A stretch of 64,000 bases of DNA from Aquimarina sp. Aq78. GTDB lineage: Bacteria; Bacteroidota; Bacteroidia; Flavobacteriales; Flavobacteriaceae. Where the stretch lies: positions 62,001 through 126,000 of the forward strand of contig NZ_OMKA01000029.1 of the NCBI RefSeq assembly GCF_900299525.1, written 5' to 3'. Of this stretch, positions 34,321-56,937 are shown in pieces. Position numbers and translations under genes: made by a program. Each line of letters begins with the position of its first letter. The first letter of the stretch is position 1. The notes beneath the pieces were generated by a model, which saw only the letters and a list, made by a program, of their open reading frames with translations, made no database searches and was not told where the DNA came from.

Positions 34321-34343
34321 ATGTCAGTATACAGAAGAATTGA

Positions 34344-34351
34344 TACATTTG
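34344..34351 (+). promoter_or_regulatory. -7 box of the two-component operon
   Basis: TACATTTG exactly fits TAnnTTTG and ends 3 nt before the ATG at 34355. No TTTG/TTG lies at the right spacing upstream, so the promoter may need an activator and the mRNA would be nearly leaderless. Confidence 0.5.
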
Positions 34352-34354
34352 TAT

Positions 34355-36505
34355 ATGTTAAAATTATTACATCTATCAATTGTGTATGGTATATTCATCC
34401 TACCTTTTATCCTGGGAGCACAGGTAGATAAGAGTAGTACTCCATTTATTCCTGAAAAAGAAAGAAGGATAATTAAAGAAATTCAGCTTTTGGTCAATAC
34501 TCATGGCAAAGAAGAAGAGGCTTATAAAAAAGTTCACCATCAATTCAAGACAAAAGCATTAAAAAGCGGACAATTTAAGGCTGATTTAAACTTGATTCTA
34601 ACCTCTTATTTTAAAAAGAAAGCTTTAATTGATTCATCTTTCTATTATGCAAAAAGGGTATTGACAATTAAACATTTCAAAAATGACACCATAAAAAAGG
34701 AGATTTATGGCTTAACCTATAACATGTTAGGAATACTAAATTCTAAAATAGGCCTTGAAGAAAAATCCAAAAAATGGCATTTAAAAGGAATTAACATTTC
34801 GCAAAAATACAATGACAGACGTATCTATTATATTAATTCTTTTGGTCTGGCAAATGCTTATCTATCAGCAAAAGAGTATGATAACTCATTAAATCTTTAT
34901 AAACAATGTCTAGAATATACAGAAGTTCCAGAAATGGTCTATGGAAGCTATGTCAATATGGCTAATATATATGGTTATTTGGAGAACTATGAAGCAACTA
35001 TTCAATATCTAACAAAGGCACGTGAAATCTGTGAAAAATCCCAAAGTAATCGTTGTATTAGTATTATTTCAAACAATATAGGAATTACCTATCGAAAACA
35101 GGGTAACATGGATCAGGCCTTGATAATGTTTGATGAGGCATTAGAAATTGCAGTCACCCATCAATATCCTGAAATAGAAATCACTGGATATCTAGAAAAA
35201 GGTCTTGTACTAAACCATCTAAAAAAACATGAAGAAGCTGAGAAGATTATTCTTTTAGCTTTAAACAAGTCAAAAAAACTTGGATTTTTAAATAATCAAA
35301 AAAACATCTATTATAGACTAAAAGAGATATCAATTTCTCAAAATAATTATAAGAAAGCACTTTCTTATGCCGAAAAATTCTATGAGCTTACAGATTCTAT
35401 TCATTTTTTAGAGAATGATAAAGAAATTAATGAATTAGAAGTAAGGTATCAAACCCTTCAAAAAGAAAAAGAAATAAAAGTCCTACAGGTCGAAAATGCA
35501 AATCGAGAATTAGATTTAAGGAATCAAGAAGAAGCTCTCAAAAATCTTAGATTACAACAAGAGATTGAAAAAAGAGAAACTCAGAACAAGATTTTATCAT
35601 TTCAGAATGCTTCAGAAAAAAAACTTAATGAGATTACATTACTAAAAAAAGATCAAGAGATTCAAGAATCTAAATTAGCCAGACAAAAAAGTATTAAAAA
35701 TAGTATCTTGTACTCTTTTTTGATTCTTCTTATCCCAGTTATTGGTTTATTATTTACATACTATCAAAAACTTCAGACTCAGAGTGAATTAAATAAAAAA
35801 CAGGAAGAAATAAGTGAGCAAAAAATTTCTTCTTTAATTAAAGATCAAGAGTTAAAACTAATTAAAGCATCTATTAAAGGTCAGGATAAAGAAAGAAAAC
35901 GTATTGCGCTAGAGCTACACGATAGCATTGGTGGTAATCTTGCTGCTATAAAATTACAACTAAATAACACTGTGCTTAATGGAAATAAGAAAACAATAAT
36001 AACTATTAACAATCAATTAGATGACACTTATGAGCAGGTACGTAATTTATCGCATAACTTAATCCCTAAAAAATTTAGTGAAAATAACTTTTGTGATGTA
36101 CTTGAAGAGTATTTTAATAATATTGGCGGTACGACTAGTCTAAACACTTCTTTTGTAGCATACCCAAGAACAGAAATTGATGTTCTAGACGAAACTTTAC
36201 AGATCGAAATTTTTAAAATTATTCAGGAACTTATTACCAACACTATTAAACACGCTAAAGCTACTTCTATAGAACTTCAATTAAATCTGGTAGAAAATAT
36301 AATAAATGTACTATTCGAAGATAATGGTATTGGTTTTAACGCAAAAAACAAGGCTACAGGACTTGGGTTTGAGAATATAAAAAATCGATTAAAAAAAGTA
36401 TCTGGTACTTTTCATATCGATTCCAGAATTAATCGTGGTACCATTATAGATATAGAAGTCCTGGCATTAACATCAATTAAAGATAAAGTGAGCTACAATC
36501 ACTAA
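34355..36505 (+). CDS. TPR-containing sensor histidine kinase (HisKA_3/NarL-type partner)
   Basis: 716 residues from the ATG at 34355; an upstream TTG at 34340 is less likely. A signal peptide (MLKLLHLSIVYGIFILPF, then LGAQ) is followed by about 300 residues of TPR repeats, a coiled coil rich in Gln/Glu/Lys (residues ~330-440), one transmembrane helix (SILYSFLILLIPVIGLLFTYY), then a HisKA_3 dimerisation domain with the phosphorylated His522 in IALELHDSIGG and a HATPase_c domain (NTIKHAKA, DNGIGF, GLGFENIKNRLKK). The periplasmic TPR part probably senses a protein or envelope signal. It forms a pair with the response regulator 87 bp downstream. Confidence 0.9.
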   Translation: MLKLLHLSIVYGIFILPFILGAQVDKSSTPFIPEKERRIIKEIQLLVNTHGKEEEAYKKVHHQFKTKALKSGQFKADLNLILTSYFKKKALIDSSFYYAKRVLTIKHFKNDTIKKEIYGLTYNMLGILNSKIGLEEKSKKWHLKGINISQKYNDRRIYYINSFGLANAYLSAKEYDNSLNLYKQCLEYTEVPEMVYGSYVNMANIYGYLENYEATIQYLTKAREICEKSQSNRCISIISNNIGITYRKQGNMDQALIMFDEALEIAVTHQYPEIEITGYLEKGLVLNHLKKHEEAEKIILLALNKSKKLGFLNNQKNIYYRLKEISISQNNYKKALSYAEKFYELTDSIHFLENDKEINELEVRYQTLQKEKEIKVLQVENANRELDLRNQEEALKNLRLQQEIEKRETQNKILSFQNASEKKLNEITLLKKDQEIQESKLARQKSIKNSILYSFLILLIPVIGLLFTYYQKLQTQSELNKKQEEISEQKISSLIKDQELKLIKASIKGQDKERKRIALELHDSIGGNLAAIKLQLNNTVLNGNKKTIITINNQLDDTYEQVRNLSHNLIPKKFSENNFCDVLEEYFNNIGGTTSLNTSFVAYPRTEIDVLDETLQIEIFKIIQELITNTIKHAKATSIELQLNLVENIINVLFEDNGIGFNAKNKATGLGFENIKNRLKKVSGTFHIDSRINRGTIIDIEVLALTSIKDKVSYNH

Positions 36506-36592: not shown

Positions 36593-37237
36593 ATGAAATA
36601 TAATTTAATCATAGCAGATGACCATAAAATGTTTTTGGATGGTTTACTAAGCATTCTTAACTCAGAAAAAGAATATAATATTTTATTAACTGCCAAAGAC
36701 GGTAAACATATTGCAAAATACCTGGAAATTAATCCCGATGAAAAAATAGATCTTATTATTACAGATATTTCTATGCCTGAGTTAGATGGTATTTCTCTAA
36801 ATAAGATTATAAAAGAAAGAAAGAAAAGCATACGAACCTTGGTAGTTAGTATGCATAATGATGCTGACATGATTGATAATCTTATTGAACATGATGTAGA
36901 TGGGTATGTGCCTAAAAATGCTGAAAAAGAAGAACTTTTAAAAGCTATAAAGACTATACTTAAGGGAGAGAAGTACTTTTCAAAAGAAATAAAAGACATT
37001 TATTTAGAAAATAAATTTGCCAAAAAGAAGAAGGAAGATATTAAACTTACACAAAGAGAGATTGATGTTATTACACTTATTGCGCAAGAGTACACCACAC
37101 AAGAGATCGCCGATCAATTGTTTTTGAGTAAACATACCATCGAAAGTTATAGAAAAAATCTAATTGCTAAACTTAATGTTAGAAATCTGGCTGGATTGAC
37201 TAAGTATGCTTTAAAAATGAAGTATATAAAATCTTGA
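36593..37237 (+). CDS. NarL/LuxR-family response regulator
   Basis: 214 residues. The receiver domain has Asp9-Asp10, phosphoacceptor Asp58 (IITDISMPELDG) and Lys in VPKNAEKEE. The C-terminal LuxR HTH is LTQREIDVITLIAQEYTTQEI with recognition helix LSKHTIESYRKNLIAKL. Cognate partner of the upstream TPR kinase. Targets are unknown; the 14-bp inverted repeats upstream of the kinase gene and of the type IX operon are candidates. Confidence 0.93.
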   Translation: MKYNLIIADDHKMFLDGLLSILNSEKEYNILLTAKDGKHIAKYLEINPDEKIDLIITDISMPELDGISLNKIIKERKKSIRTLVVSMHNDADMIDNLIEHDVDGYVPKNAEKEELLKAIKTILKGEKYFSKEIKDIYLENKFAKKKKEDIKLTQREIDVITLIAQEYTTQEIADQLFLSKHTIESYRKNLIAKLNVRNLAGLTKYALKMKYIKS

Positions 37238-37289: not shown

Positions 37290-38216
37290 TTATCGTTTAT
37301 TACTAAACCCATCACCTAAGCGGTAGCTTAGTATAATACCATGTGTATTATTAATAGGAGTATCTCTTAGTGTTTGATTGTAATTATATAATAATCGTAA
37401 GTGATTAGAAATATAAAACCCTGCAAGAAAATTTATCGAGGAACTCGTTCTGTATCCAGCACCAATTTCAATTTTATTTTTGTAGTTCACTGTCGTATTA
37501 ATATCTACCTGAATTGGTGCTCCAGAAACATATTTAGCCAAAACGCTGGGCGTTATTAATACTTCTTCAAAGCGTGTCGCAAAAAAACGATATCCTGTAT
37601 ACGCATAATATGGATTCTCTAAATTAATATTGTCTTCAGAAGACAAAGAATCTCCTAATAAATTAGGTGCAGAAACACCAATATAAATATGCTCTCTATT
37701 ATACAAAACACCTACCCCCAAAGTAGGGATAACAGTATTGATATTATTTGCAAAATTAGGATCATTCTGAATGCCTAATTCTAATAGATTTTCATTATAA
37801 ATCATTGCGCCTCCGGTAATTCCAAAAGATAATACGTTAGGGTTATAAGACCACCATCGTGCCTGGTTATAATTGTGGTCAAAAACTATTTTATAGGCAT
37901 ATGCCCCAAACAAGCTTGTAGTTGTAGTTACTCCTACCTGATCACTATACACTCCTGCTCCTAATCCCATATTTTTAGAGCGTAATGGCGAATTCACTGT
38001 TAACCCAATATTTCTGGGACTACCATCCAATTGATTTAAATATCCTCTATTTGTGAGGGTAATATCAGAATCGGGGTAGAAACCGGCATGTGCTGGATTA
38101 ATAACTACTGTATTGTAATTATAATTTGCAAAGACCGGAGTTTGTTGCCCAAATATTGGGCATAAAAATCCTTTAGATAGTATTGCAACTATCAATAATA
38201 TATATACTTTTTTCAT
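37290..38216 (-). CDS. PorP/SprF family type IX secretion outer-membrane protein
   Basis: 308 residues. A signal peptide (ILLIVAILSKGFLCPIFGQ) leads to PVFANYNYNTVVINPAHAGFYPD, the typical PorP/SprF start, then a beta-barrel with repeated amphipathic strands ending HGIILSYRLGDGF. SprF-type proteins are needed for secretion or anchoring of the adhesin encoded next to them. It begins 3 bp after the large type B sorting-domain gene, a standard pairing. Confidence 0.92.
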   Translation of the reverse strand: MKKVYILLIVAILSKGFLCPIFGQQTPVFANYNYNTVVINPAHAGFYPDSDITLTNRGYLNQLDGSPRNIGLTVNSPLRSKNMGLGAGVYSDQVGVTTTTSLFGAYAYKIVFDHNYNQARWWSYNPNVLSFGITGGAMIYNENLLELGIQNDPNFANNINTVIPTLGVGVLYNREHIYIGVSAPNLLGDSLSSEDNINLENPYYAYTGYRFFATRFEEVLITPSVLAKYVSGAPIQVDINTTVNYKNKIEIGAGYRTSSSINFLAGFYISNHLRLLYNYNQTLRDTPINNTHGIILSYRLGDGFSNKR

Positions 38217-38219
38217 AAA

Positions 38220-41200
38220 TTAACGCTTTAATACAAGGAAACCGGTTTGCTTTTTTAAGTTATGTGAACCTTCTATTTTGATATTAAAGAAATATGTCCC
38301 CTCGGGTAATTTATCTCCTCCCAAACTTCTCTTTCGATTAGCAATTCCTCTAAAAACTCTTGATGTATTATTATATCCTTCAACTTCAAAAACTATATCT
38401 CCCCATCGATTATATATCGATACTTTATTGTCAGGATAATTTTCAATGTTATAAATCTCCCAATATTCATTGATTCCATCACCATCTGGTGAAAAACCAT
38501 ATCGTGTTTGATCTTCTTCTTGTGCTTCTACATAAACTGTGACTGTATCTTCTTCAATACATCCTAGATCACTTGTAAAAAGAACAGTATAGGTTGTCGT
38601 CTGATTTGGGTTTGCTACAGGATTAGCAATATTAGTATTAGTAAGACCTGTTGAAGGTGTCCAAACAAATGTTCCATTATCCGAAGCGGTAGCATTTAAC
38701 TGTACTTCCTGTCCTTGTATAATTTCTTCATCTTCTCCTGCTTCTATAGTACATATTACAAGGTTGTCATTATCCGTAATAACAACATCTTGCATTGTAG
38801 TCGTTCCTAGGATAATACCCGTAGATGGATTACTAATCGTTAGTGTAGCTGTCTCTGTACCTTCTACAAGAGCATCATCTAGAACCATAAAAGTTACTGC
38901 ACCTGTAGTCATACCATCAGGAATTGTAATCGTACTATTACTTAAGATAAAATCTGAAGGTGTAATTCCTGCTCCTGTGGTAACAAGATCAATAGTTTGA
39001 GCGCCTACAACAGCTATCGAAGAAGTGGCGGTGACCGTTATTACTGTACCTACAGCTTCTGTACCTGTATTTGCTGAAACTGAAAGGTTCACTGTAGGGA
39101 TAGGTGCTGAATCATTATCCGTAATAACAACATCTTGCGTTGTAGTTGTTCCTAAGGTAATACCTGTGGATGGATTGCTAATCGTTAGTGTAGCCGTCTC
39201 TGTACCTTCTACAAGAGCATCATCGACAATTGTAAAAGTTACTGTAGCTATGGTCATCCCATCAGGAATAGTAATAGTCGTATTACTTAAGGTAAAATCT
39301 GAAGCAGTAATTCCTACTCCTGTGGTAGCAAGATCAATAGTTTGAGCACCTACTACAGCTCCCGAAGAAGTAGCTGTAACTGTTATTACTGTCCCTGCAG
39401 CTTCTGTACCTGTATTTGCTGAAACTGAAAGATTTACTGTAGGGATAGGTGCTGAATCATTATCCGTAATAACAACATCTTGCGTTGTAGTTGTTCCTAA
39501 GGTAATACCTGTGGATGGATTGCTAATCGTTAATGTTGCCGTTTCTGTACCTTCTACAACAGTATCATCAACAATAGTAAAAGTTACTGTAGCTGTAGTC
39601 ATCCCATCAGGAATAGTAATCGTACTATTACTTAAGGCAAAATCTGAAGCAGTAATTCCTGCTCCTGCGGCAGCAATATCAATAGTTTGAGCACCTACTA
39701 CAGCTCCCGAAGAAGTAGCTGTAACTGTTATTACTGTCCCTGCAGCTTCTGTACCTGTATTTGCTGAAACTGAAAGATTCACTGTAGGGATAGGTGCTGA
39801 ATCATTATCCGTAATAACAACATCTTGCGTTGTAGTTGTTCCTAAGGTAATACCTGTGGATGGATTGCTAATCGTTAATGTTGCCGTTTCTGTACCTTCT
39901 ACAACAGTATCATCAACAATAGTAAAAGTTACTGTAGCTGTAGTCATCCCATCAGGAATAGTAATCGTACTATTACTTAAGGCAAAATCTGAGGGTGTAA
40001 TTCCTGCTCCTGCGGCAGCAATATCAATAGTTTGAGCTCCTACAACAGCTATCGAAGAAGTAGCTGTAACTGTTACTACTGTCCCTGCAGTTTCCGTACC
40101 TGTATTTGTTGAAACAGAAAGATTTACTATAGGAGTAAGAGTAGGAGTTCTTACTTCAAAACTACACTGAGTTTCTTTCCCACTATTATCGGTTACCGTC
40201 ATGGTAACTGTTGTATCTGCAGTAAATGGGGTTCCCGCAACAGGGTCTTGAGTAATCTCTAGATTGGTATCACAATCATCGGTAGCATCAACATCACCCG
40301 TATAATCAGGTAACGGAGATCCTGAACTTAGTGTTTGATTACCAGGACAAATAGTAATATTTGGTGGATCAATGTCGGGAATGTCTTGACCAAAAATAAC
40401 AAATATGGTTGGAGCAGGAGCATCTATATCAAAACGAAATGTTACATCATTTGTTCCTATTATAATATCATCTATGTCGTCGTTATTCACATCACCAGCA
40501 TGGCTTACCGAAATATTTCTTCTGCTTCCTAAATCTAATCTAATAGGCAATACTGAAACCGAAGGAGAAGTTAATGTTATTGTAGATTCCCAATTGTTTT
40601 TTCCATAAAGCAAAGAAACTGAATTTCTTTGGCTTAAGATAGCATCATCTATGCCATCATTATTAAAATCTCCGGCATATTCACAATTTGTTATTGAACT
40701 TCCATCAAAAGAAAACCCATTAGTCCCATCTAAAAGTGCGAGATCTACAACAGCAGGGAATCCAACACTTCCAAATAGCACGTATTGACCACTAAAAGTC
40801 ATATCATTGAAGCTGTCTCCATTTATATCTCCTATGCTTCCTACTAATCCTGACAATCTTTCAGAACTGTGTTCAACAGCAAAACCGTTAGTTCCATCTA
40901 AACTCGAAACATTTAGTGTTACTGGGAAAGGGCTATCACTTCCAAATACAACAAATTTTCTATCCTTTCTCCCTCCAATAATAACATCATTTATATTATC
41001 GCCATTTACATCTCCCAAGCCAGAAACATGATAACCTATTTTACCTGCTGTTACGTTATCTCCTACAATAGTAAAGCCATTAAGTCCATTTATCTCATTT
41101 ACTCGAATGACTGGAGGAAATGCAGATCTGGTACCATAAAGAATATGACACTTCCCTGTTAAGGCACTACCACTTCCTGAACCTTCTAGCAAAGCTATGT

Positions 41201-43682
41201 CATCGATGTTATCCCCATTAAAATCTCCTATATTGTCCAGGGCATAACCAGGTCTTTCAAAAGGGTCAACTCCAATAATGGTAAAACCGTTATTTCCATC
41301 TAAAGTAGAAATTAAAAACTCTCTTAAAAAACCTGATCTTCTACCAAAAATGATGTATGTATACCCTAACTCTGATCCCAAAGCCGTTTTTCTAAATGGA
41401 TCACTCACCATAATATCATCGACACCATCTCCATTTACATCTCCCGCACTACTCACCGAAGCACCCGTAGCAGGTTGGCTTGTAAATGGTGTGTCATTCC
41501 TAATTATAAAACCATTAGTACCATCTAAAAGAGCTAAATCAATATTTGGAGGAAAACCAGAACTTGTTCCAAATACTACATATGCAGAACCATCCATTGT
41601 CATTCTCTCATTATTATAGGGACCATCAAAAGCTGTATCTGTACCCGTCGCTCCAATAATAAAATCTTGTATTCCATCACCATTTACATCTCCTGCAGTA
41701 TCTACATCTAGGTTTTCTCCACCACCAGCTCGTCCCATTGCCATTTCCCCATATACTACAATACCATTATTCCCATTAAGATCACTAACTGGAAAAGAAG
41801 CTGTATTACACTCTATAGTAGATGTTGTTGTTTTAATAGTTACCAAAAAATTACAGGAATTTGTATTTCCTGATTTATCAGTCACAAAGACAGTAACATT
41901 GGTATCACTGGTTATTATGGTTCCCTGAGGTGGGTTTTGAGTAAAGGTAAGTTCTCCTTGGTAAGTACAATTATCGTTGGTGTCAATCAGAAACGAAACA
42001 TAATTTGGTAATACCGAATTAGAATATAATTCTTGATTTGAAGGACAACTTATTGTTGGAAGTTCGGTATCTATAAGATCAAAAGTTTCTCCATAAAAAA
42101 CATAGGCTCTTCCGTTAGTAGTTGCACTAGTATACCTCCGAATTGCTCCAACAACAAAATCTGAGGCGCCATCATCATTAAAATCTCCTAAAGTACTTAC
42201 TGAATAACCAAAACGCTGTCTACTAAACCGAGTATCTTCAAAAACCTGATAACCAATGACTCCATCTATATCATCTGCCTCTATTACCCCTGAATGAGAG
42301 TTTGAACCAAAAAGAATGTATGCTCCTCCTTGATGACCGGCTCCTCCACCTGTTGCAGAAACTATAATATCGGTAATTCCATCATTATTTACATCATTCA
42401 ATCCATCTACAGCATAACCTAAATTGTTATAACCAGAACCAATAAAGGGTTCATATCCTTCATCACCTCTAATAGTTACACTGTTTGTGTTATTTAAATC
42501 TGAAATTCTAAACGAAGATGGAAATACATTTTTTCCATACACAACATAGGCTTCTCCAATATCTCTAAGAGTATTAACATCTTTTCTAGGAGCACCTGCT
42601 ATAAAATCTTTAACTCCATCATTATTGAAGTCCTCTGCTGTACTCACTGAAAAACCTAAAGCTGCACCTTCTTCTTCTCCCAGAATAGAAAATCCATTAC
42701 TTCCATTTAGTGAAGACAAGTCAATCGAAGCAGAGAAACCAATATTATTTCCATAAATAACACATATTCTACCCGCATCTCGAGTTCCTCCCTCATCATA
42801 TCTTGGGAAACCTAAGATAATATCATCAAATCCATCACCATTGATATCTCCAGCATCACTTACTTTAGTTTCATAACCCGAATCATTTTGTGTTAAACCT
42901 TCTAATACAAAGCCATTCATTCCATTTAATACCGAAACACTCATATTATTAATAGATGAATTTCCAAAAATTACGTAGGAACGTCCAGAATTTCTAAATC
43001 CACCATCATACAAAGGTGCGTTAATTACTACATCATCCTTTCCATCATCATTAATATCTCCAGCGTAACTAACAGAATTACCAAATTGAGTTGCAGTCAC
43101 ATCAGATTCTATAATAATTCCATTAGTTCCATTAATATTAGATTCGAGATATAATGGTAAAAACCCAGAGTTAGTTCCATAAATAATGATAGCCTTTCCT
43201 AAACCTGTAGAAGAAATGACTCCTATTATGATATCATCAAATCCGTCATCGTTAAAATCTCCAGCTCTACTTACTGATCTACCCAATCGATCGTTCTGAT
43301 TTGTTCCTCTTATTACAAAACCATTAGTGCCGTCCAGAGTTGTTAAATCAAAAGAAGTAAGAGATATACCTGATTCTCCAAATATGACATAAGCTTCACC
43401 TACATCTTCTACAACACCATCAACAAATGGGGCTCCTATAATAATATCAGCAATACCATCCCTATTTAAATCCCCTGCATCTTTTACTGAATAACCTAAA
43501 TCATCTTGTGAATTTAAGCCTTCAATTACCAAACCATTAGCACCATCTAAAATAGATATTGGTACGTCTGGACATCCCTGTCCATAGGACATAAAAACAC
43601 TCCCCAATACCATTAAATATAAGGTAAACATCTTTACACTAAACTCTAATTTTCCTGTAAACTGAATCATACTATTTCTCAT
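38220..43682 (-). CDS. Giant type IX-secreted adhesin: FG-GAP, HYR, Calx-beta repeats, type B sorting domain
   Basis: 1820 residues. After a signal peptide (VLGSVFMSYGQG) come about eight FG-GAP repeats with calcium-type DxNxDGxxD motifs (DLNRDGIADIIIGAP), an HYR domain (PTISCPSNQELYS), about seven more FG-GAP repeats, a second HYR domain (ITICPGNQTLSSG), four nearly identical Calx-beta domains of 115 residues, an Ig/PKD-like domain, and a C-terminal type B sorting domain (GFSPDGDGINEYWEI, SIYNRWGDIVFE, ending VLKR). It should be exported by the type IX system, probably as a surface adhesin, with the PorP/SprF partner just downstream. A second Met at codon 5 is an alternative start. Confidence 0.92.
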   Translation of the reverse strand: MRNSMIQFTGKLEFSVKMFTLYLMVLGSVFMSYGQGCPDVPISILDGANGLVIEGLNSQDDLGYSVKDAGDLNRDGIADIIIGAPFVDGVVEDVGEAYVIFGESGISLTSFDLTTLDGTNGFVIRGTNQNDRLGRSVSRAGDFNDDGFDDIIIGVISSTGLGKAIIIYGTNSGFLPLYLESNINGTNGIIIESDVTATQFGNSVSYAGDINDDGKDDVVINAPLYDGGFRNSGRSYVIFGNSSINNMSVSVLNGMNGFVLEGLTQNDSGYETKVSDAGDINGDGFDDIILGFPRYDEGGTRDAGRICVIYGNNIGFSASIDLSSLNGSNGFSILGEEEGAALGFSVSTAEDFNNDGVKDFIAGAPRKDVNTLRDIGEAYVVYGKNVFPSSFRISDLNNTNSVTIRGDEGYEPFIGSGYNNLGYAVDGLNDVNNDGITDIIVSATGGGAGHQGGAYILFGSNSHSGVIEADDIDGVIGYQVFEDTRFSRQRFGYSVSTLGDFNDDGASDFVVGAIRRYTSATTNGRAYVFYGETFDLIDTELPTISCPSNQELYSNSVLPNYVSFLIDTNDNCTYQGELTFTQNPPQGTIITSDTNVTVFVTDKSGNTNSCNFLVTIKTTTSTIECNTASFPVSDLNGNNGIVVYGEMAMGRAGGGENLDVDTAGDVNGDGIQDFIIGATGTDTAFDGPYNNERMTMDGSAYVVFGTSSGFPPNIDLALLDGTNGFIIRNDTPFTSQPATGASVSSAGDVNGDGVDDIMVSDPFRKTALGSELGYTYIIFGRRSGFLREFLISTLDGNNGFTIIGVDPFERPGYALDNIGDFNGDNIDDIALLEGSGSGSALTGKCHILYGTRSAFPPVIRVNEINGLNGFTIVGDNVTAGKIGYHVSGLGDVNGDNINDVIIGGRKDRKFVVFGSDSPFPVTLNVSSLDGTNGFAVEHSSERLSGLVGSIGDINGDSFNDMTFSGQYVLFGSVGFPAVVDLALLDGTNGFSFDGSSITNCEYAGDFNNDGIDDAILSQRNSVSLLYGKNNWESTITLTSPSVSVLPIRLDLGSRRNISVSHAGDVNNDDIDDIIIGTNDVTFRFDIDAPAPTIFVIFGQDIPDIDPPNITICPGNQTLSSGSPLPDYTGDVDATDDCDTNLEITQDPVAGTPFTADTTVTMTVTDNSGKETQCSFEVRTPTLTPIVNLSVSTNTGTETAGTVVTVTATSSIAVVGAQTIDIAAAGAGITPSDFALSNSTITIPDGMTTATVTFTIVDDTVVEGTETATLTISNPSTGITLGTTTTQDVVITDNDSAPIPTVNLSVSANTGTEAAGTVITVTATSSGAVVGAQTIDIAAAGAGITASDFALSNSTITIPDGMTTATVTFTIVDDTVVEGTETATLTISNPSTGITLGTTTTQDVVITDNDSAPIPTVNLSVSANTGTEAAGTVITVTATSSGAVVGAQTIDLATTGVGITASDFTLSNTTITIPDGMTIATVTFTIVDDALVEGTETATLTISNPSTGITLGTTTTQDVVITDNDSAPIPTVNLSVSANTGTEAVGTVITVTATSSIAVVGAQTIDLVTTGAGITPSDFILSNSTITIPDGMTTGAVTFMVLDDALVEGTETATLTISNPSTGIILGTTTMQDVVITDNDNLVICTIEAGEDEEIIQGQEVQLNATASDNGTFVWTPSTGLTNTNIANPVANPNQTTTYTVLFTSDLGCIEEDTVTVYVEAQEEDQTRYGFSPDGDGINEYWEIYNIENYPDNKVSIYNRWGDIVFEVEGYNNTSRVFRGIANRKRSLGGDKLPEGTYFFNIKIEGSHNLKKQTGFLVLKR
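38761..40135. repeat. Tandem 345-bp coding repeats (four Calx-beta domains)
   Basis: Identical marker sequence (ACTGTAGGGATAGGTGCTGA) recurs at 39091, 39436 (after the shared prefix) and 39781, a constant 345-bp or 115-residue period. The middle units are nearly identical in DNA, which indicates recent expansion or gene conversion and possible copy-number variation. Confidence 0.9.
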
Positions 43683-43770
43683 CCTTAAAAAAAAATGTTT
43701 ATGACAAAACTATATTTTCCATTAGGATTAATACTCACTATAAGTAGGGTTTTACCATATGCAAATACCC

Positions 43771-43784
43771 CCCTGTTTTCAGGG
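43771..43784. promoter_or_regulatory. Inverted repeat CCCTG-TTTT-CAGGG upstream of the type IX adhesin operon
   Basis: CCCTGTTTTCAGGG lies 89 bp before the adhesin start, in the divergent region with the 43948 gene. It differs at one base from the element before the kinase operon (34307-34320). A minus-strand TAGTTTTG box at 43705-43712 could be the adhesin -7 box. Confidence 0.55.
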
Positions 43785-43827
43785 TGCATATTTTCACCAG
43801 AAAAGGTGTATTTCTCAGCAATTGTAT

Positions 43828-43841
43828 CTCTCATCTTTGTA
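43828..43841 (+). promoter_or_regulatory. Locus-wide upstream element, copy 1 (CTCTCATCTTTGTA)
   Basis: Located 107-120 bp before the ATG at 43948. CATCTTTG resembles the TAnnTTTG -7 box with one mismatch. The following ~50 bp are also similar to the region before the paralogous gene at 50408. Confidence 0.5.
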
Positions 43842-43947
43842 CTGTGCTTTTTGGTCTTCAAAACATGTATCAAAAAAATAGATATAAGAAGTCATTTATA
43901 AAATCACAAAAAGAAAAATAAATACTAACCCTTTAAAACTAAAAATT

Positions 43948-44367
43948 ATGATTTGGGGAATCACATTAATTCTATTAAGTATTATAGCAGTACCATCATT
44001 ATTGCTATCTAAAAAACCAAACGCGAAAGAACTTTTAGAAAAAATCGAACCGTATCAAGGTTGGATCGGACTTGTATTTTGTTTCTGGGGAATATGGGGA
44101 ATCATTTCTTCAATCCTTGGTATAGGCTGGCTTGCAACATTCCCTATTCGATGGGTAACCTTTTTGGCAGGAAATATTGTTTCGGCAGTACTAGGATTCA
44201 TGTTAGGTTTTGGTATGATTAATAAACTTGTACTATCTAAAAATGAAGCGGCCAAAGAGAAAGCCAACCAACTAAGAGCAAAATTAGCTCCAAAACAAGG
44301 TAAACTAGGAATCCTTGGTTTAATTGTAGGTGCTGCAATGATCGTATTATCATTTTTGCCTTACTAA
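43948..44367 (+). CDS. Small multi-spanning membrane protein, paralogue of 50408-50845
   Basis: 139 residues with about four hydrophobic segments: residues 1-20 ([20 protein letters not shown]), ~38-58 ([20 protein letters not shown]), ~63-92, and the C-terminal [21 protein letters not shown] basic cytoplasmic loop ([20 protein letters not shown]) separates the last two. Not a family I recognise. It is first in a plus-strand gene run that includes zinc-ribbon, SIMPL-like, LipL32-like and SPFH genes. A paralogue 6 kb downstream shares sequence and upstream region, so one arose by duplication. Confidence 0.75.
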
Positions 44368-44448
44368 CATTAACACCTCTATAAAACTTGTTTTTATAGT
44401 ACTTACAACAGTAACAACTGCCATTTAGCAGAAAAAATCCAAAACATC

Positions 44449-44793
44449 ATGATCATATTTGGAACAGGTTCTTCAACTATTCATCCCACAAAATTAGAAG
44501 GAGGAAATTGCCCATATTGTAATACAGAAAACAATATGTGGATACAAGGATATGGAAAATATATTCATGTGTTTTGGATACCGTTCTTTCCTATCGGGAA
44601 AAAAGTATACACGGTTTGCGGTCATTGTAAGGGAGCTTTTGAAGAAAAAGAACTTCAGAGTCAGCAATTGATACAGAGTTTTAAAGATTTTAAAAACAAT
44701 CAAATAAAAACTCCATGGTATCACTATACAGGACTTACGATTCTGGTTGTGTTCATCGCATTACTTACTGTACTGCCTTATTTGGTAAAATAG
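44449..44793 (+). CDS. Zinc-ribbon membrane protein
   Basis: 114 residues. An N-terminal zinc ribbon of the form CPYC near residues 23-26 and CGHC near residues 59-62 (YTVCGHCKGAFEEKEL) is followed by one C-terminal transmembrane helix (YTGLTILVVFIALLTVLPYLV). The segment between (YIHVFWIPFFPIGKKVY) is typical of zinc-ribbon membrane proteins of this kind. Probably inner-membrane with the ribbon in the cytoplasm. Function unknown; 31 bp from the next gene. Confidence 0.75.
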   Translation: MIIFGTGSSTIHPTKLEGGNCPYCNTENNMWIQGYGKYIHVFWIPFFPIGKKVYTVCGHCKGAFEEKELQSQQLIQSFKDFKNNQIKTPWYHYTGLTILVVFIALLTVLPYLVK

Positions 44794-44823
44794 AAACAAC
44801 GTAAAATCATATAACTTTTTAAA

Positions 44824-45435
44824 ATGAAAAAACTCGTTTTTATAATGCTCCTAACGTTTGCATCATCTATTTCGCAAGAAAATAGTGAGACTCTAACTAT
44901 TGTAGGAGAAGCGAATAAGAAGATAGAAGTTAACAACTATTATCTTACAATCTCGCTAAAACAACTCGTTGCAAATGGATATCAGCAACTCGAACCCAAA
45001 AGTTTATCACAGGTTAAACAATTATACAGTGATAAGTTAAAGACTATAGGAGTTGATTTTAGCAAGTTTCAAAAGAATGTTCTCTATCAATTGTATGCAT
45101 CTTACTCAGAAGTAAATGATATTTCATATTACAATTATGCAACAACTTCTGAAGAAGAAGTGATCAAAATCACCAAACAGAGGATGAATGGTTTGACAAT
45201 TATGCAAGTCGAAGCAGTAGCCAAAGAAAAAAACAATACAGAATGGGCTGCTTTAACACTCACTGCAATTGAAGATGCAAAAGTGAAAGCCAAAAAAACT
45301 GCTGATCATCTCAATAAAAAATTGGGGGATATCATAAAGATCGAAAATTCTGATTCCAGAACGCAATACATAAATATGCATAAACCAGAAGAAATTCAAA
45401 AACATCTTGTAAAAGTAACTTTTACACTAGAATAA
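44824..45435 (+). CDS. Secreted SIMPL/DUF541-like protein
   Basis: 203 residues with a short signal peptide (KKLVFIMLLTFASSIS). The mature part starts with a TLTIVGEANKKIEV strand, and the C-terminal half has the helix-turn AIEDAKVKAKKTADHLNKKLGDIIKIE, as in SIMPL (DUF541) periplasmic proteins. Assignment rests on this pattern only. No enzymatic role is known for the family. Periplasmic or outer-membrane location is likely. Spacing of 30-45 bp to neighbours fits an operon. Confidence 0.6.
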   Translation: MKKLVFIMLLTFASSISQENSETLTIVGEANKKIEVNNYYLTISLKQLVANGYQQLEPKSLSQVKQLYSDKLKTIGVDFSKFQKNVLYQLYASYSEVNDISYYNYATTSEEEVIKITKQRMNGLTIMQVEAVAKEKNNTEWAALTLTAIEDAKVKAKKTADHLNKKLGDIIKIENSDSRTQYINMHKPEEIQKHLVKVTFTLE

Positions 45436-45480
45436 TAACGGTGTATATCAATAAATAAATTAACACATAAAATCAAAAAA

Positions 45481-46164
45481 ATGAAAACAAAAATTTTAAT
45501 CTTAGCAGTTATCCTCGCTTTTGGAAGCAATCTAAATGTCCAAGCTCAAAAATTAAAAAAGTTTGGTAGTTCTATCGAAAAAAAGATAGGTCCAAAAACC
45601 ATAAAAGTACCTTATACAGATGTTGTATCTTATATGGGATATGCTGCATCTGGTAATGAAGATGAAGTAAAAGACGGTAAGAAATTCTATTACATTTATG
45701 TATGGATTCCTGCTGTTGCTCCAGAAATTGGTGTAAGAATGATGTCTCCTGTGGGGAAAACCAAAATCAAAAAAGCAACACAATCAGCAGCATATACAGA
45801 AAATGCAAAATCAACTGATTATTTTGACACCTATATTACTTTAGAGCGTTCAGATATTGTTAGTAAGGATAATATTAATGAAGGTGCGGTAAAAAGCGCT
45901 AATTGGGTTACTCTAGAACGTAACGATGATAGCAGCGAAATGCCAAAGCAACCAAGCGGAAGCAGCTATAACTCTCTATTAAGATATAAAAGCGAAGCAA
46001 GTGATCCTCTTAAAGCACTAACTGTTGGACTATATCGTATCGGTTTTACAACATACAAAACTGGTGAGGTAAAAGGTACTTTCCTAGCAGAAGTTGCAGC
46101 TCCTATCAAATTACCTGGAGTAGTAATGGCAAAAACTATCGAAGACTTGAAAAAGGGACTATAA
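45481..46164 (+). CDS. LipL32-family secreted protein (copy 1)
   Basis: 227 residues. A signal peptide ends near residue 22 (ILAFGSNLNVQAQ); there is no cysteine and so no lipid anchor, unlike Leptospira LipL32. Family-specific blocks are VPYTDVVSYMGYA, YYIYVWIPAVAPEIGVRMMSP, YNSLLRYK and GLYRIGFTTYKTGEVKGTF. The residues matching the LipL32 calcium site (recalled as Asp132, Thr133, Asp164, Asp165, Tyr178) are present as Asp116, Thr117, Asp149, Asp150 and Tyr163 with nearly the same spacing. Leptospira LipL32 binds host matrix; the role here is unknown. A close paralogue is at 56164-56844. Confidence 0.85.
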   Translation: MKTKILILAVILAFGSNLNVQAQKLKKFGSSIEKKIGPKTIKVPYTDVVSYMGYAASGNEDEVKDGKKFYYIYVWIPAVAPEIGVRMMSPVGKTKIKKATQSAAYTENAKSTDYFDTYITLERSDIVSKDNINEGAVKSANWVTLERNDDSSEMPKQPSGSSYNSLLRYKSEASDPLKALTVGLYRIGFTTYKTGEVKGTFLAEVAAPIKLPGVVMAKTIEDLKKGL

Positions 46165-46191
46165 AACGTAAATTGGAATAGTAGCACCTAC

Positions 46192-46234
46192 GGTTATTCC
46201 TATGCTTTTTGGTTCAAAAAACATAGGAATAACC
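46192..46234 (+). terminator. Hairpin after LipL32 copy 1
   Basis: A 13-bp perfect stem (GGTTATTCCTATG / CATAGGAATAACC) is followed by TCTTTT. It resembles the hairpin after LipL32 copy 2, suggesting the gene was duplicated with its downstream flank. It may only partly stop transcription into the zinc-ribbon gene at 46274. Confidence 0.75.
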
Positions 46235-46273
46235 TCTTTTCGAATGTCTTTTCTCTAAACCACCAATTTTAAG

Positions 46274-46480
46274 ATGCAAGAAAACGACGATAAACAAAAT
46301 TCTAAAGAAGAAAAAAAAAATCTTCTCGATGATATCCTGGCCAATGCACTCTCTTCTACAAAAAAATATGAAGAAACAAATGCAGGTCTCGAAACCAAAC
46401 GATGTAAAAGCTGCGGAGCAGCAAGACCCGAAGACACAGATCTTAAATACTGTGATTTCTGTGGAGACCAATTTTACTAA
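46274..46480 (+). CDS. Small zinc-ribbon protein
   Basis: 68 residues. A charged, Lys/Glu-rich N-terminal half is followed by a C-terminal zinc ribbon (CKSCGAARPEDTDLKYCDFCG). No signal peptide or membrane segment, so cytoplasmic. It lies 22 bp before the next zinc-ribbon gene. Real-gene support comes from the intact ribbon and operon spacing; its function is unknown. Confidence 0.7.
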   Translation: MQENDDKQNSKEEKKNLLDDILANALSSTKKYEETNAGLETKRCKSCGAARPEDTDLKYCDFCGDQFY

Positions 46481-46502
46481 AAAATAATAATCTTTTAGAA
46501 AT

Positions 46503-47267
46503 ATGTCAATTAATGAAACACAAAATAGATGGGATGGCTTCCTTAAAAAAATCAAAGATCGATTCGAGGAGATATTAGAAAAAACAGAAGCTGTATTGCC
46601 CTTATTATTTGAAGCGACTGATTTTGAAACCACTACATTTCACAATGCCTGGCAAGGAATTTATTCTCAAGCCAATGAACTTATCTGGAAAATAGATAGT
46701 ACATGGGAAGATAAAGTCGAAGAAGCTTTTGAAGATGCAGGAGCAGAATTTGGTTCTAAAAAATTTATACAAGAAAGAGATAAAGGGTATCTAACAAAAT
46801 TTGAACTTGAACAAAAACTAAAATCATACGAAGTGAAAATTTTTGCAGATGCTGCAAAAAAATTACTAAAAGAAGTAAAAGACACTTTATCCAAAGATTT
46901 TTGTTGTACCCAATGTCAAGCTAAACTCCCGGTAAAAGATAATTTTTTCAGATCCTATTACAGTACTTGTGAATATTGTCAGACTGTAAACACATTCGAG
47001 CCAGGAACTAAAGCCAGAAACATCGAACATTTTGCTATTCATGCTCTTGGAGAAGAGGCTGCTTTAGAACACTATCTGCATTATGAAGAACTTAAGTTTC
47101 AAAATTATGTACAAGATTCAGAAACGTATGGTACCGAGGAATTAGCAACTCTATATCAAAAATATGTAGAAACCTACTTAAAGAAAAGAATCGAAATCAT
47201 ACCAGATTATAAAGATAGGTACGAAAAAGATCTCAAAGCTAAAACTGCATTCTTAACTAACTATTAG
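46503..47267 (+). CDS. Helical protein with central zinc ribbon, unknown function
   Basis: 254 residues. The N-terminal ~135 residues are acidic and largely helical, followed by a zinc ribbon (CCTQCQAKLPVKD with a second pair CEYCQ) and a helical C-terminal part. No membrane segment. I do not recognise the family. It precedes the SPFH-SHOCT gene by 20 bp; in Bacillus the SPFH protein YdjI also sits with a zinc-ribbon protein, so a partnership is plausible by analogy. Confidence 0.7.
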   Translation: MSINETQNRWDGFLKKIKDRFEEILEKTEAVLPLLFEATDFETTTFHNAWQGIYSQANELIWKIDSTWEDKVEEAFEDAGAEFGSKKFIQERDKGYLTKFELEQKLKSYEVKIFADAAKKLLKEVKDTLSKDFCCTQCQAKLPVKDNFFRSYYSTCEYCQTVNTFEPGTKARNIEHFAIHALGEEAALEHYLHYEELKFQNYVQDSETYGTEELATLYQKYVETYLKKRIEIIPDYKDRYEKDLKAKTAFLTNY

Positions 47268-47287
47268 TAATCCTAAAAAAAAAAAAT

Positions 47288-48328
47288 ATGTCAAATTCAT
47301 TTAGAAGTCAACTACGTTCGGTAATCGAATGGCAAAACCCGAAACCCGAAACTCTTTTTGAAAAATGGACAGAAAACGGGGACGAAATTAAAAATGCTTC
47401 AAAATTAATCGTAGGGCCTGGACAAGGATGTCTTTTTGTATACGAGGGCAAAGTAGAAGGCGTTTTTGAAGAAGAAGGGCTTTACGATCTTAAAACAGGC
47501 AATATTCCTTTTTGGACGACCATCAAAAATATCATGTATACCTTTGAGTCTGCTCATAAAGTGGGAATCTTCTTCTACAGAAAAGCAGAAATGCAAAATA
47601 TACGCTGGGGAACCCCTTCTCCTATCACCTATAAAGATCCTGTTTATAATTTTCCTGTAGGATTAGGTGCTTTTGGTAATTTTTCTTTCAAAATAACGAA
47701 ACCAGTCGATTTTTTCACCAATGTTATTGCAGGTGACGACTACTATCCTGTAAAAGCGATACAAAAAGTTATTTTATCCAGAATTACTCAACCTATCAGT
47801 GATTTCCTTGCCAACGCTTCATTTAGTTATGTAGAAATTGATAAACATCGTAATGAAATCGCATCATTCTCTCAGAATTCGAGTGCACAAATCTTCGATG
47901 AATTAGGTTTTGAACTACTTGATTTCAGGATAGAAGGAACCAGTTTTGATGAAGAAACCAAAACAAGAATTGGTCGAATTGCAGATATGAGTGCCGAAGC
48001 CCAGGCAATGAAAGAACTTGGTGTAAGTTACCAGGATTACCAGCAACTTGAGGCATTAAAAAATATGGCAAAAAATGAAGGTGGTGGTAATATCGGTATG
48101 CAAATGGGGGCTGGATTAGGAATGGGTCAAATGCTCGGAAATATGATGAATAATCAAGGGCAGCAATCCACACCTCAACAAAATACTCCTCCTCCTCAAC
48201 CTGAATCTCAACCCCAAAACGATGACCCAGTACAAAAATTAGAAAAACTTAAGAAAATATTTGATGCTGGCCTAATCGACGAACAGGAATACAAACTGAA
48301 GAAACAGGAAATATTATCTCAATTCTAA
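47288..48328 (+). CDS. SPFH-domain protein with C-terminal SHOCT (YdjI/virion-core-like)
   Basis: 346 residues. The N-terminal SPFH-like region of the YdjI type starts with LRSVIEWQNPKPETLFEKW and includes the VGPGQGCLFVYEGKVEGVFEEEG and YFYRKAEMQNIRWGTP-like segments. A Gly/Met-rich linker (GGGNIGMQMGAGLGMGQML) and a Pro/Gln-rich stretch lead to a SHOCT tail (LEKLKKIFDAGLIDEQEYKLKKQEIL). SPFH proteins form membrane-associated scaffolds. There is no N-terminal membrane anchor, so it may be recruited by the zinc-ribbon membrane proteins of the same locus. Confidence 0.8.
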   Translation: MSNSFRSQLRSVIEWQNPKPETLFEKWTENGDEIKNASKLIVGPGQGCLFVYEGKVEGVFEEEGLYDLKTGNIPFWTTIKNIMYTFESAHKVGIFFYRKAEMQNIRWGTPSPITYKDPVYNFPVGLGAFGNFSFKITKPVDFFTNVIAGDDYYPVKAIQKVILSRITQPISDFLANASFSYVEIDKHRNEIASFSQNSSAQIFDELGFELLDFRIEGTSFDEETKTRIGRIADMSAEAQAMKELGVSYQDYQQLEALKNMAKNEGGGNIGMQMGAGLGMGQMLGNMMNNQGQQSTPQQNTPPPQPESQPQNDDPVQKLEKLKKIFDAGLIDEQEYKLKKQEILSQF

Positions 48329-48360
48329 AAACAAAAATCAATCTTTAAAAATTATACATT

Positions 48361-49431
48361 ATGAGTACAGTTAATGAATTATATCAAGACGTTTCAGGAA
48401 AGCAAAAAGACGAATATAGACAATATCTAATGACCCTAGATCGTATGGATTGGCATAGTTATGATTACACAACATGGCCATGTGCAGATCTTTCTTTTCA
48501 GGATCTTGAAGATGATGAAGATTATGATGTTTGGCCATTTAAACCAAACTTAAATGAACCACATTGGGTGGATCTTAATAACCAATTTAAGTCGGGTATC
48601 AGAAGATATGGATATGTAAATAAACTCGAAATGCCAGAGCAAGTTCGTGAGCTTTCTCATGATGATGCTACCAATATCCTTAATGATATCAAAAACCTTA
48701 AAGATAGTGACCTTTCAGAATTTAATGATCAGATTCATGAATATGGATTCTCTGATGAAGACCACTTTTTATGGGGAATAGCATTACTAGATTCTGCTGA
48801 AGAAAAAGCATACGACGATGCTGACAACTTTTTAAAAGAACAAAAAGCTAAACTGGATGCCCAGATGGATGCTCATGTAGAAGCAGCAGAAGCTGGTGGA
48901 TTATTAGATCCTATTAATGGCATTGATATGGAAACCTGGGCCGCTGCTAATGCAAAAATAGCTGGAGGTATGGGCTTAGAAGAAGTACTTAAAATTGTAG
49001 GAACAGAAAAACCAATCTGGGATGAAGTATCTGCAGAATGGACCGCAAGAATGTCTCAGGATACAACTTTTGCGATTTCTAAGGTATATGGTGATGCTTT
49101 TATGAATTCGAACATTGGCAAATTTGCAGATGCAGGAACCGATCAAGAATCTGAAACTGGTTCTCCTGCCGGAAATAGTGATATTTATGAAGATTTCGAA
49201 CTTTATATTAAAGTTATGTGTCATCAAAATATGGGAGCGGCGCAAGGAAAAGATGCAGCTTCAATCTTGCAAGAATACGGACTTACAGTTACCGATTGGA
49301 GTTCTGTAGGTATGCATTGGACTCCAAAAATGGCTACAGATACTCGTATGGCATTAAAAATGGGAGAATTAATGGAAAAATACAATGCAGAATTTGCTTC
49401 GGAAAAAGCAGGAGACGATATCGATTTTTAA
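48361..49431 (+). CDS. Acidic Trp-rich protein with an internal repeat, unknown function
   Basis: 356 residues, acidic, no signal peptide. Two related ~65-residue units occupy the second half: one around residues 188-250 (WDEVSAEWTARMSQDTTFA) and one around 273-340 (WSSVGMHWTPKMATDTRMA), sharing WxxVxxxWTx(R/K)MxxDTxxA. The N-terminal half is rich in Trp, Tyr and Asp (MDWHSYDYTTWPCADL). No family recognised. It is 32 bp after the SPFH gene and ends before a terminator-like hairpin. Confidence 0.65.
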   Translation: MSTVNELYQDVSGKQKDEYRQYLMTLDRMDWHSYDYTTWPCADLSFQDLEDDEDYDVWPFKPNLNEPHWVDLNNQFKSGIRRYGYVNKLEMPEQVRELSHDDATNILNDIKNLKDSDLSEFNDQIHEYGFSDEDHFLWGIALLDSAEEKAYDDADNFLKEQKAKLDAQMDAHVEAAEAGGLLDPINGIDMETWAAANAKIAGGMGLEEVLKIVGTEKPIWDEVSAEWTARMSQDTTFAISKVYGDAFMNSNIGKFADAGTDQESETGSPAGNSDIYEDFELYIKVMCHQNMGAAQGKDAASILQEYGLTVTDWSSVGMHWTPKMATDTRMALKMGELMEKYNAEFASEKAGDDIDF

Positions 49432-50407: not shown

Positions 50408-50845
50408 ATGATTTTTGGAATCACATTAATTTTATTAAGTATTATAGTAGCAGCACCATCATTATTACTATCAAAAAAACCAGAGGTAAAAGAATTTTTA
50501 GAAAAAATCGAACCGTTGCCAAGCTTGATCAGATTTATGATCGGACTTATATTCTGTTTCTGGGGTGTATGGGGAGTCATTTCGGCAATTTTAAATATAG
50601 AATGGATAACAACATTTCCTATCCGGTGGATCACCTTATTAGTTGGGAATATTATGGAAGCTGTATTAGGTTTCATGTTAGTTTTCCGTTCAATTAACAA
50701 GTTTTTCGTATTTAAAAATGGAGCTACAAAAGAAAAAGCAAATCAATTAAGAGAAAAGTCAGCATCAAAACAACGTAAGTTAGGAGTTTTAGGAATCATT
50801 ATTGGCTGCTTGCAGATTGTAGCCTCTTTCTTATTCTATATGTAG
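50408..50845 (+). CDS. Small multi-spanning membrane protein, paralogue of 43948-44367
   Basis: 145 residues from the ATG at 50408. A GTG at 50345 opens the same frame but lies inside the duplicated upstream region and is not credible. The hydrophobic profile matches the paralogue ([42 protein letters not shown]-terminal LGVLGIIIGCLQIVASFLFY). It is probably single-gene under its own copy of the upstream element. Confidence 0.75.
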   Translation: MIFGITLILLSIIVAAPSLLLSKKPEVKEFLEKIEPLPSLIRFMIGLIFCFWGVWGVISAILNIEWITTFPIRWITLLVGNIMEAVLGFMLVFRSINKFFVFKNGATKEKANQLREKSASKQRKLGVLGIIIGCLQIVASFLFYM

Positions 50846-56075: not shown

Positions 56076-56163
56076 ATTAAATTGATAATCATAGATTATC
56101 ATAACACTAACCTATAGTGATAAGAAGTGTGTGTATTTATCACTAAAATCAAATCAATTATTT

Positions 56164-56844
56164 ATGAAAACAAAAATTTTAATTTTACTAAGCATATTTG
56201 CTTTAGGAACTTCTATTGATGCTCAAGCACAAAAACTAAAGAAATTTGGTGGTTTAACAGAAAAAAAGATAGGCCCAAAAACTATTAAAGTGCCTTATAC
56301 AGATGTTGTAACATATCTTGGATATGCTGCGCCAGGTAATGAAGATGAAGTAAAAGATGGTAAGAAATTTTATTATATATATGTTTGGGTTCCTGCTGTA
56401 GCTCCAGAGCTTGGTATAAGAATGATGTCTCCCGTAGGTAAAAACAAAATAAAAGGAGCTACTCAATCTGCAGGATATACAGAAAATGCTGGATCTAGTG
56501 ACTTTTTTGACACCTACATTACTTTAGAACGTTCTGATATCATAAGTAAGGATAAAATTACTGGAGAAGCTGTAAAAGGTGCAAATTGGACTGTTTTAGA
56601 ACGTAATGATGATAGCAGCGAAATGCCTAAACAGCCAAGCGGAAGTAGTTACAATTCGCTATTAAGATATAAAAGTGAAGTTGGAGATCCTCTTAAAGCA
56701 TTAACTGCTGGATTATACCGTATCGGTTTCACAACATACAAAACTGGTGAGGTAAAAGGTACTTTCATAGCTCAGGTTGCTGCTCCTATTAAATTACCAG
56801 GAGTTGTAATGGCCAAAACTATCGAAGAGTTAAAAAAAGGATAA
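56164..56844 (+). CDS. LipL32-family secreted protein (copy 2)
   Basis: 226 residues from the ATG at 56164, which gives a clean signal peptide (MKTKILILLSIFALGTSIDA); an upstream in-frame ATG at 56131 would put 11 residues ahead of it and is rejected. About four fifths of residues match copy 1, including YYIYVWVPAVAPELGIRMMSP, FDTYITLERSD, NDDSSEM, YNSLLRYK and GLYRIGFTTYKTGEVKGTF. The LipL32 calcium-site residues are all kept, and there is no lipobox. It is monocistronic with the locus element upstream and a long bidirectional terminator downstream. Confidence 0.85.
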   Translation: MKTKILILLSIFALGTSIDAQAQKLKKFGGLTEKKIGPKTIKVPYTDVVTYLGYAAPGNEDEVKDGKKFYYIYVWVPAVAPELGIRMMSPVGKNKIKGATQSAGYTENAGSSDFFDTYITLERSDIISKDKITGEAVKGANWTVLERNDDSSEMPKQPSGSSYNSLLRYKSEVGDPLKALTAGLYRIGFTTYKTGEVKGTFIAQVAAPIKLPGVVMAKTIEELKKG

Positions 56845-56881
56845 TAGTATATACAACCTAATTTAATACACACACCAACGG

Positions 56882-56920
56882 TTATTCCCATATATTTCTT
56901 AAAAGAATATATGGGAATAA
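56882..56920. terminator. Bidirectional terminator after LipL32 copy 2
   Basis: A long stem (TTATTCCCATATAT / ATATATGGGAATAA, 14 bp plus an inner TTCTT/AAGAA helix) is followed by TTGTTTTA. In the presumed ancestral order it would serve both LipL32 copy 2 and the convergent ykgJ gene. Confidence 0.85.
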
Positions 56921-56937
56921 TTGTTTTATATATATGC

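Follow-up and report, generated by a model that had tools for sequence, protein, structure and literature searches.

A LipL32-family protein without a lipid-anchor cysteine in Aquimarina sp. Aq78 and the genes recurring beside it in Bacteroidota

The whole stretch of DNA that was analysed, referred to here as the window, comprises 64,000 nt of contig NZ_OMKA01000029.1 of Aquimarina sp. Aq78 (62,001-126,000), and coordinates are window-local. Two LipL32-family genes, copy A and copy B, are located in the window together with the following genes and features:

34340..36505, + strand: TPR sensor histidine kinase (HisKA_3, HATPase_c), part of the recurring neighbourhood
36593..37237, + strand: response regulator (Response_reg and GerE/LuxR), part of the recurring neighbourhood
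37290-38216, - strand: PorP/SprF-type protein, between the kinase/regulator and 4TM genes
38220-43682, - strand: FG-GAP/Calx-beta protein with a CHU_C type IX secretion signal
43948..44367, + strand: 4TM protein, 139 aa, four-helix, a membrane protein by eye
44449..44793, + strand: zinc-ribbon protein (PF17032, 32.7 bits against a cut-off of 28.9)
44824..45435, + strand: SIMPL (DUF541)-like protein, signal peptide by eye, Pfam score 22.6 bits, below the cut-off of 25.2
45481..46164, + strand: LipL32-family protein copy A, ATG start, 227 aa, signal peptide about 1-22 followed by the mature Lipl32 domain
46192..46234, + strand: terminator-like hairpin 27 nt downstream of copy A, -22.5 kcal/mol, shuffle z -8.3
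50411..50845, + strand: second 4TM copy, 69% identical, upstream of LipL32 copy B
56164..56844, + strand: LipL32-family protein copy B, 226 aa, with the conserved MKTKILI start
56878..56924, + strand: similar hairpin after copy B, -22.9 kcal/mol, its 5' arm sharing CGGTTATTCC with the first

The product of copy A had been predicted to be a LipL32 homologue, and a Pfam profile search bore this out. PF12103 (Lipl32) matched residues 39-216 over its whole length (1-179 of 179) with 274 bits (cut-off 25; E 6.2e-82), and both LipL32-like sequence blocks on which the prediction drew are present in the translation of 45481-46164. No further Pfam family was matched at E <= 0.01, nor was a CHU_C or type IX sorting domain. 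A phmmer search of PDB sequences returned three distinct sequences, those of the LipL32 structures 2zz8, 3frl and 2wfk (E ~5e-29). The AlphaFold2 model, computed from 45 family sequences, had a mean pLDDT of 82.7, and its 8 Foldseek matches at E <= 0.001 were all LipL32 (best 4.4e-16). In VIA-align, 190 residues were superposed on 2zz8 with Z 18.0 and rmsd 3.5; the LipL32 crystal structures scored Z 17.6-18.0, against Z 9.3 for the next-best fold, a calpain C2-like domain. These results confirm that copy A is a LipL32-family jelly-roll protein, and the Pfam score, the PDB sequence matches and the fold Z rule out chance or artefact as the origin of the match. The nearest relative among the matches listed, from Aquimarina macrocephali (L048, on a contig of the congeneric genome G423), has a single substitution relative to copy A over 227 residues.

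Copy A shares with LipL32 of L. interrogans (2zz8) the jelly-roll, the five calcium ligands and 40% identity over the common core (78 of 193 columns). Unlike the Leptospira protein, it lacks the lipid-anchor cysteine. Ten alignment columns that separate the last calcium ligand from the GLYR block in Leptospira are also missing from it, and where Leptospira has the acidic loop LDDDDDGDD, copy A has the less acidic LERNDDSSE. It also differs from LipL32 proper in its score with NF038394, the NCBIfam equivalog for LipL32 as major surface lipoprotein, which was 114.5 bits and thus under the cut-off of 300.

The original prediction was headed by a LipL32 homologue in a flavobacterium. This headline is not new: Gardiner et al. 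2014 (PMC4080168) already list LipL32 orthologues in Pseudoalteromonas tunicata, Cellulophaga, Formosa and Ulvibacter, so that relatives in Bacteroidota had been published. Copy A belongs to the same family as these orthologues; Cellulophaga and Formosa are relatives of this host, and their members were recovered among the best 80 of 226 relatives. These best 80 yielded 76 loci in the genome-contig scan, all Bacteroidota by title and ranging from Flavobacteriaceae to Reichenbachiella, Fulvivirga, Labilibaculum and Aureispira. LipL32 was found in 35 of 52 congeneric genomes, 16 of 397 Flavobacteriaceae genomes and 1 of 395 genomes of the phylum sample, the last being the window's own. A plasmid or phage setting was rejected, as tblastn gave no match in the plasmid (72,556 records) and phage (50,697 records) collections; in viral contigs, 12 pattern matches for LipL32 relatives were obtained and none was confirmed. 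Separately, a further LipL32 gene of Aquimarina algiphila is located near the end of a same-strand run (L115, 443-10367), whose proteins we take by eye to be Nudix, PRPP synthetase, macro domain, KptA and NAMPT proteins, presumably of NAD/ADP-ribose salvage.

Copy B, which the original prediction had missed, lies 10 kb downstream of copy A and is 83% identical to it (188 of 227 alignment columns); its listed GTG start, at 56131, precedes the conserved MKTKILI start by 11 codons. In the tree, copy B fell in a starred group of 11 rows (96/96), one of which belongs to another genus; copy A was placed apart from copy B, in a less well supported group of 10 rows (92/63). Two further loci (L007 and L054) each have one LipL32 copy in the group of A and one in the group of B, indicating that the duplication is common to several Aquimarina species. 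The phylogeny proposed earlier was informative within Bacteroidota and silent on transfer between phyla, since its rows are Bacteroidota plus one Leptospira sequence on a branch of more than 6 changes per column. Between the second 4TM copy and copy B, a 1607-aa protein (51062-55885) has weak beta-propeller and C-terminal TPR matches.

The calcium ligands of Leptospira LipL32 are Asp132, Thr133, Asp164, Asp165 and Tyr178 according to the excerpts of PMC5566480, and these align with D116, T117, D149, D150 and Y163 of copy A. All five are kept, as had been claimed, with spacings of 33 and 13 in copy A against 32 and 13 in Leptospira. The five were retained in 104 of 105 Bacteroidota rows (103 distinct sequences), the exception being a divergent copy in genome G436 that has the first ligand only. 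The 105 rows omit a truncated copy (L117) and the divergent copy of genome G404; the latter was missed by the motif used and, by eye, has also lost most of the calcium site. From the ligand residues we infer calcium binding by copy A. The ligand loop 150-155 has a pLDDT below 50, so that a formed calcium site is not visible in the model itself.

The two divergent genes (L124, 8120-8806, in G404; L125, 8308-8991, in G436) belong to congeneric genomes and encode strongly diverged LipL32 proteins with 47 and 50% identity to copy A, and both are located 3' of kinase/regulator and zinc-ribbon genes. Their loss of most calcium ligands constitutes a natural experiment on the calcium site.

Leptospira LipL32 is lipidated at Cys20 (PMC5566480, excerpts). 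Copy A contains no cysteine anywhere, as originally stated, and none of the 105 Bacteroidota rows has one past residue 26, indicating that the loss of the anchor is general here and broader than first claimed. The cysteines of the 26 rows that have any are all early, inside the signal peptide; over 99 distinct sequences, none is found beyond residue 16. Alanine occupies position 22 in 104 of 105 rows and glutamine position 23 in all 105, as would be expected for signal peptidase I cleavage at A|Q, and by eye copy A starts with a standard Sec signal peptide carrying a site for signal peptidase I. The protein had been described as secreted rather than lipidated. The absence of an anchor and the Sec signal agree with this description; the secreted part of it is opposed by the lack of a matched type IX sorting domain. 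With no such domain in copy A, periplasmic retention would be the more economical reading, a location suggested by these sequence facts and by general knowledge of Bacteroidota export. It would fit the subsurface position that Pinne and Haake 2013 (PMC3544172, excerpts) report for LipL32 in Leptospira.

The gaps between the 4TM, zinc-ribbon, SIMPL-like and copy A genes are 81, 30 and 45 bp. The best hairpin within 160 nt 3' of the gene had a median of -20.3 kcal/mol for 88 LipL32 genes, compared with -10.3 kcal/mol for 242 genes whose next gene is on the same strand and -13.8 kcal/mol for 99 genes whose next gene is on the other strand. These strong hairpins suggest that LipL32 ends its unit, and they are consistent with strong expression. 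The LipL32 hairpin was found by folding and comparison with controls and was absent from the list of a separate terminator scan. In codon adaptation, the two LipL32 copies ranked moderately high, 38th and 17th of 140 genes, and the 4TM and SIMPL genes 96th and 140th of 140; as a sign of strong LipL32 expression these ranks count weakly, and a few ORFs of the reference set are probably not ribosomal. A Bacteroidota-type promoter pattern occurred 6 times in the window against 3.7 expected and never near copy A, and sigma-70-type matches within 43680-46500 numbered 9 against 11.3 in shuffles.

The window copy of the 4TM protein matched no Pfam family at E <= 0.01, and 44 of its relatives gave three weak matches, each in one member only. 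No solved structure was matched by Foldseek at E <= 0.001. The best VIA row, a designed helical protein with Z 10.5, is within the range of common helical arrangements, and the protein was therefore not assigned to a fold. At 22% identity, a 132-aa neighbour of LipL32 in Reichenbachiella (L108) is a possible distant relative of the 4TM protein. A defence-system reading of the neighbours was rejected, as seven of the proteins gave nothing at E <= 0.01 against PADLOC. Among the matches listed by a literature search on SIMPL proteins in flavobacterial kinase operons, no paper carried the words "SIMPL domain".

Four partners of LipL32 recur: the TPR histidine kinase, the LuxR-type regulator, the 4TM protein and the SIMPL-type protein. 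With one locus taken per contig or genome, 70 of the 76 loci were counted (L062, L064, L066, L090, L112 and L115 were left out). In this set, from the best 80 of 226 relatives, the 4TM gene was the most frequent LipL32 neighbour among the window's genes, occurring within 6 kb on 52 of the 70 contigs, which represent 19 of 27 lineage groups; the response regulator was present in 31 of 70 contigs and 18 of 27 groups. The 18 contigs without a 4TM gene within 6 kb include some short ones, and none of the scored partner genes was present at the Labilibaculum, Aureispira and Bacteroidales loci. Strands were counted over 96 loci (L048-L143), in which some genomes appear twice. A 4TM gene of at least 40% identity was found in 63 of these, on the strand of LipL32 in all 63 and upstream of it in 60. 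The kinase was on the opposite strand in 9 of 52 loci and the regulator in 6 of 47, indicating that these two are not always on one transcript with LipL32.

The order kinase, regulator, 4TM, SIMPL-like, LipL32 was found in Formosa (2 of 2 loci), Algibacter (2 of 2), Winogradskyella (4 of 7) and Flavobacterium sp. 28A. In Flavivirga (L093) the order is 4TM, LipL32, kinase, regulator, and at the Cyclobacteriaceae locus (L102) LipL32 is followed by the 4TM gene, with a divergent kinase pair. In Fulvivirga (L123) the kinase pair is divergent from an FG-GAP protein, PorP and LipL32, and a 4TM gene lies at a distance of 6.8 kb from LipL32; the PorP/SprF and FG-GAP pair there resembles that of the window, as judged from Pfam matches and sequence similarity. 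Gene order thus varies between lineages and the partner set stays together.

Other arrangements were observed as well. In Zhouia (L121, 6150-10669) and in genome G465 (L139, 8339-12417), the gene before LipL32 encodes a 188-aa protein, which in L121 had no Pfam match. Before it comes a TPR protein resembling the kinases described here and, in L121, a regulator that is LytTR-like by eye, so that this role may be filled by another type of regulator. A cassette (46274-49431) separating the two LipL32 copies of the window encodes a 68-aa zinc-ribbon-like protein, a 254-aa protein, an SPFH/Band_7_1 protein with a weak SHOCT tail and a DUF6620 protein. Its SPFH gene was found within 6 kb of LipL32 in 19 of 70 contigs (from the best 80 of 226 relatives).

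On the computed family, fold, ligand residues, absence of cysteine, neighbourhood and hairpin, we read copy A, with a probability of about 0.5, as a soluble envelope protein of the periplasm that is stabilised by calcium and controlled by a two-component system, the location and function being the interpretive part. The protein would be exported by Sec, cut by signal peptidase I and most likely retained in the periplasm, where bound calcium would stabilise its fold. Its gene would be transcribed as the last of a short operon (4TM, zinc ribbon, SIMPL-like, LipL32) closed by a strong terminator. The neighbouring TPR histidine kinase and LuxR-type regulator would control it, and its role would probably be in cell-envelope upkeep. 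The partner genes suggest work inside the cell envelope and not as a surface lipoprotein.

The excerpts of PMC3544172 describe LipL32 as the most abundant protein of pathogenic Leptospira and its primary function as still largely unknown. The best-surviving alternative, which we regard as rather unlikely, is that copy A is a surface adhesin for biological surfaces like PtlL32 of P. tunicata and crosses the outer membrane by an unknown route. Deletion of LipL32 in P. tunicata lowered attachment to matrix 10-fold and reduced attachment to Ulva (PMC4080168, excerpts), which speaks for adhesion and against the envelope reading, and a type IX-secreted FG-GAP protein and a PorP/SprF protein adjoin LipL32 both in the window and in Fulvivirga. 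However, copy A has neither a lipid anchor nor a matched CHU_C or other sorting domain, and in Leptospira the protein is reported as subsurface and its mutant as equally adherent to matrix (PMC3544172, excerpts). Elsewhere, LipL32 is listed under cell adhesion in PMC7857515 and mentioned once, in a reference title, in PMC4914501; passages of PMC2536512, PMC12153261 and PMC3493377 were covered as well.

It is less probable still that the neighbourhood is incidental, with a stand-alone LipL32 gene inserted beside an unrelated older operon and sharing position only. The set does occur without LipL32. Of 397 Flavobacteriaceae genomes, 43 carry the 4TM gene and only 16 carry LipL32, indicating that the 4TM gene does not need LipL32. 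From the Flavobacteriaceae 4TM list we chose 20 stretches, each centred on a 4TM gene that is not near LipL32. The kinase and regulator were present in 10 of them, 7 from genomes in which LipL32 was not found, and in 5 of these 7 (L153, L160, L161, L162 and L164) a SIMPL-like gene was called beside the 4TM gene. In other lineages, among the best 80 of 226 relatives, LipL32 occurs without the set. Against an incidental neighbourhood, the association outlasts changes of gene order, extends over Flavobacteriaceae and Cytophagales-type lineages, and keeps the 4TM gene on the LipL32 strand without exception. Co-occurrence also exceeded expectation: 11 of the 397 genomes have both genes against 1.7 expected (Fisher p 2e-8, a test that ignores kinship). 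A hand tally of the 52 congeneric genomes gave 31 with LipL32 and 4TM (one of these, G404, with a 35-residue 4TM match only), 4 with LipL32 only, 1 with 4TM only and 16 with neither.

Eight of the 20 stretches show the 4TM gene in different surroundings, and a SIMPL-like gene was called in 7 of these; in the 5 of the 8 whose neighbour was viewed, it looks like what we take to be a DnaG primase. The remaining two were L170, in which most of the SPFH cassette stands beside the 4TM gene, and L171, which carries a third 4TM copy of the window's own genome (G000:C15:13959-14369, 79% identical, no LipL32 nearby) and, for kinase and regulator, nothing closer than remote matches of 24 and 36% identity.

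Release of LipL32 into the medium to act outside the cell is the least probable alternative. The cleavable-looking signal peptide and the absence of an anchor speak for it; against it, no type IX sorting domain was matched in copy A.

Because the kinase-regulator-4TM-SIMPL set was found without LipL32, LipL32 looks like an optional last member, and the partner set seems to predate the inclusion of LipL32, or at least not to depend on it. Bacteroidota LipL32 may, tentatively and at less than even odds, be the soluble periplasmic output of an older two-component/4TM/SIMPL envelope-response operon that acquired it in some lineages.

The general loss of the anchor and the partner set are the points not found in the literature searched. 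In the open-licence LipL32 literature available in part, there were no statements on missing lipidation or recurring partner genes in Bacteroidota LipL32. Words beginning with lipobox, signal, cysteine, lipid or operon are absent from the main text of PMC4080168, and in its excerpts no discussion of tandem copies or neighbouring genes was found. The partner genes are a useful lead: a harmless marine relative with recurring partners provides a genetic handle on LipL32 function, in the form of a regulator and candidate interaction proteins. The absence of an anchor from every Bacteroidota row examined separates the function of the fold from lipid-borne effects. If LipL32 is indeed such an operon output, lipidation and the adhesin/antigen story of Leptospira would be later or side developments, and the basic job of the family would lie inside the envelope.
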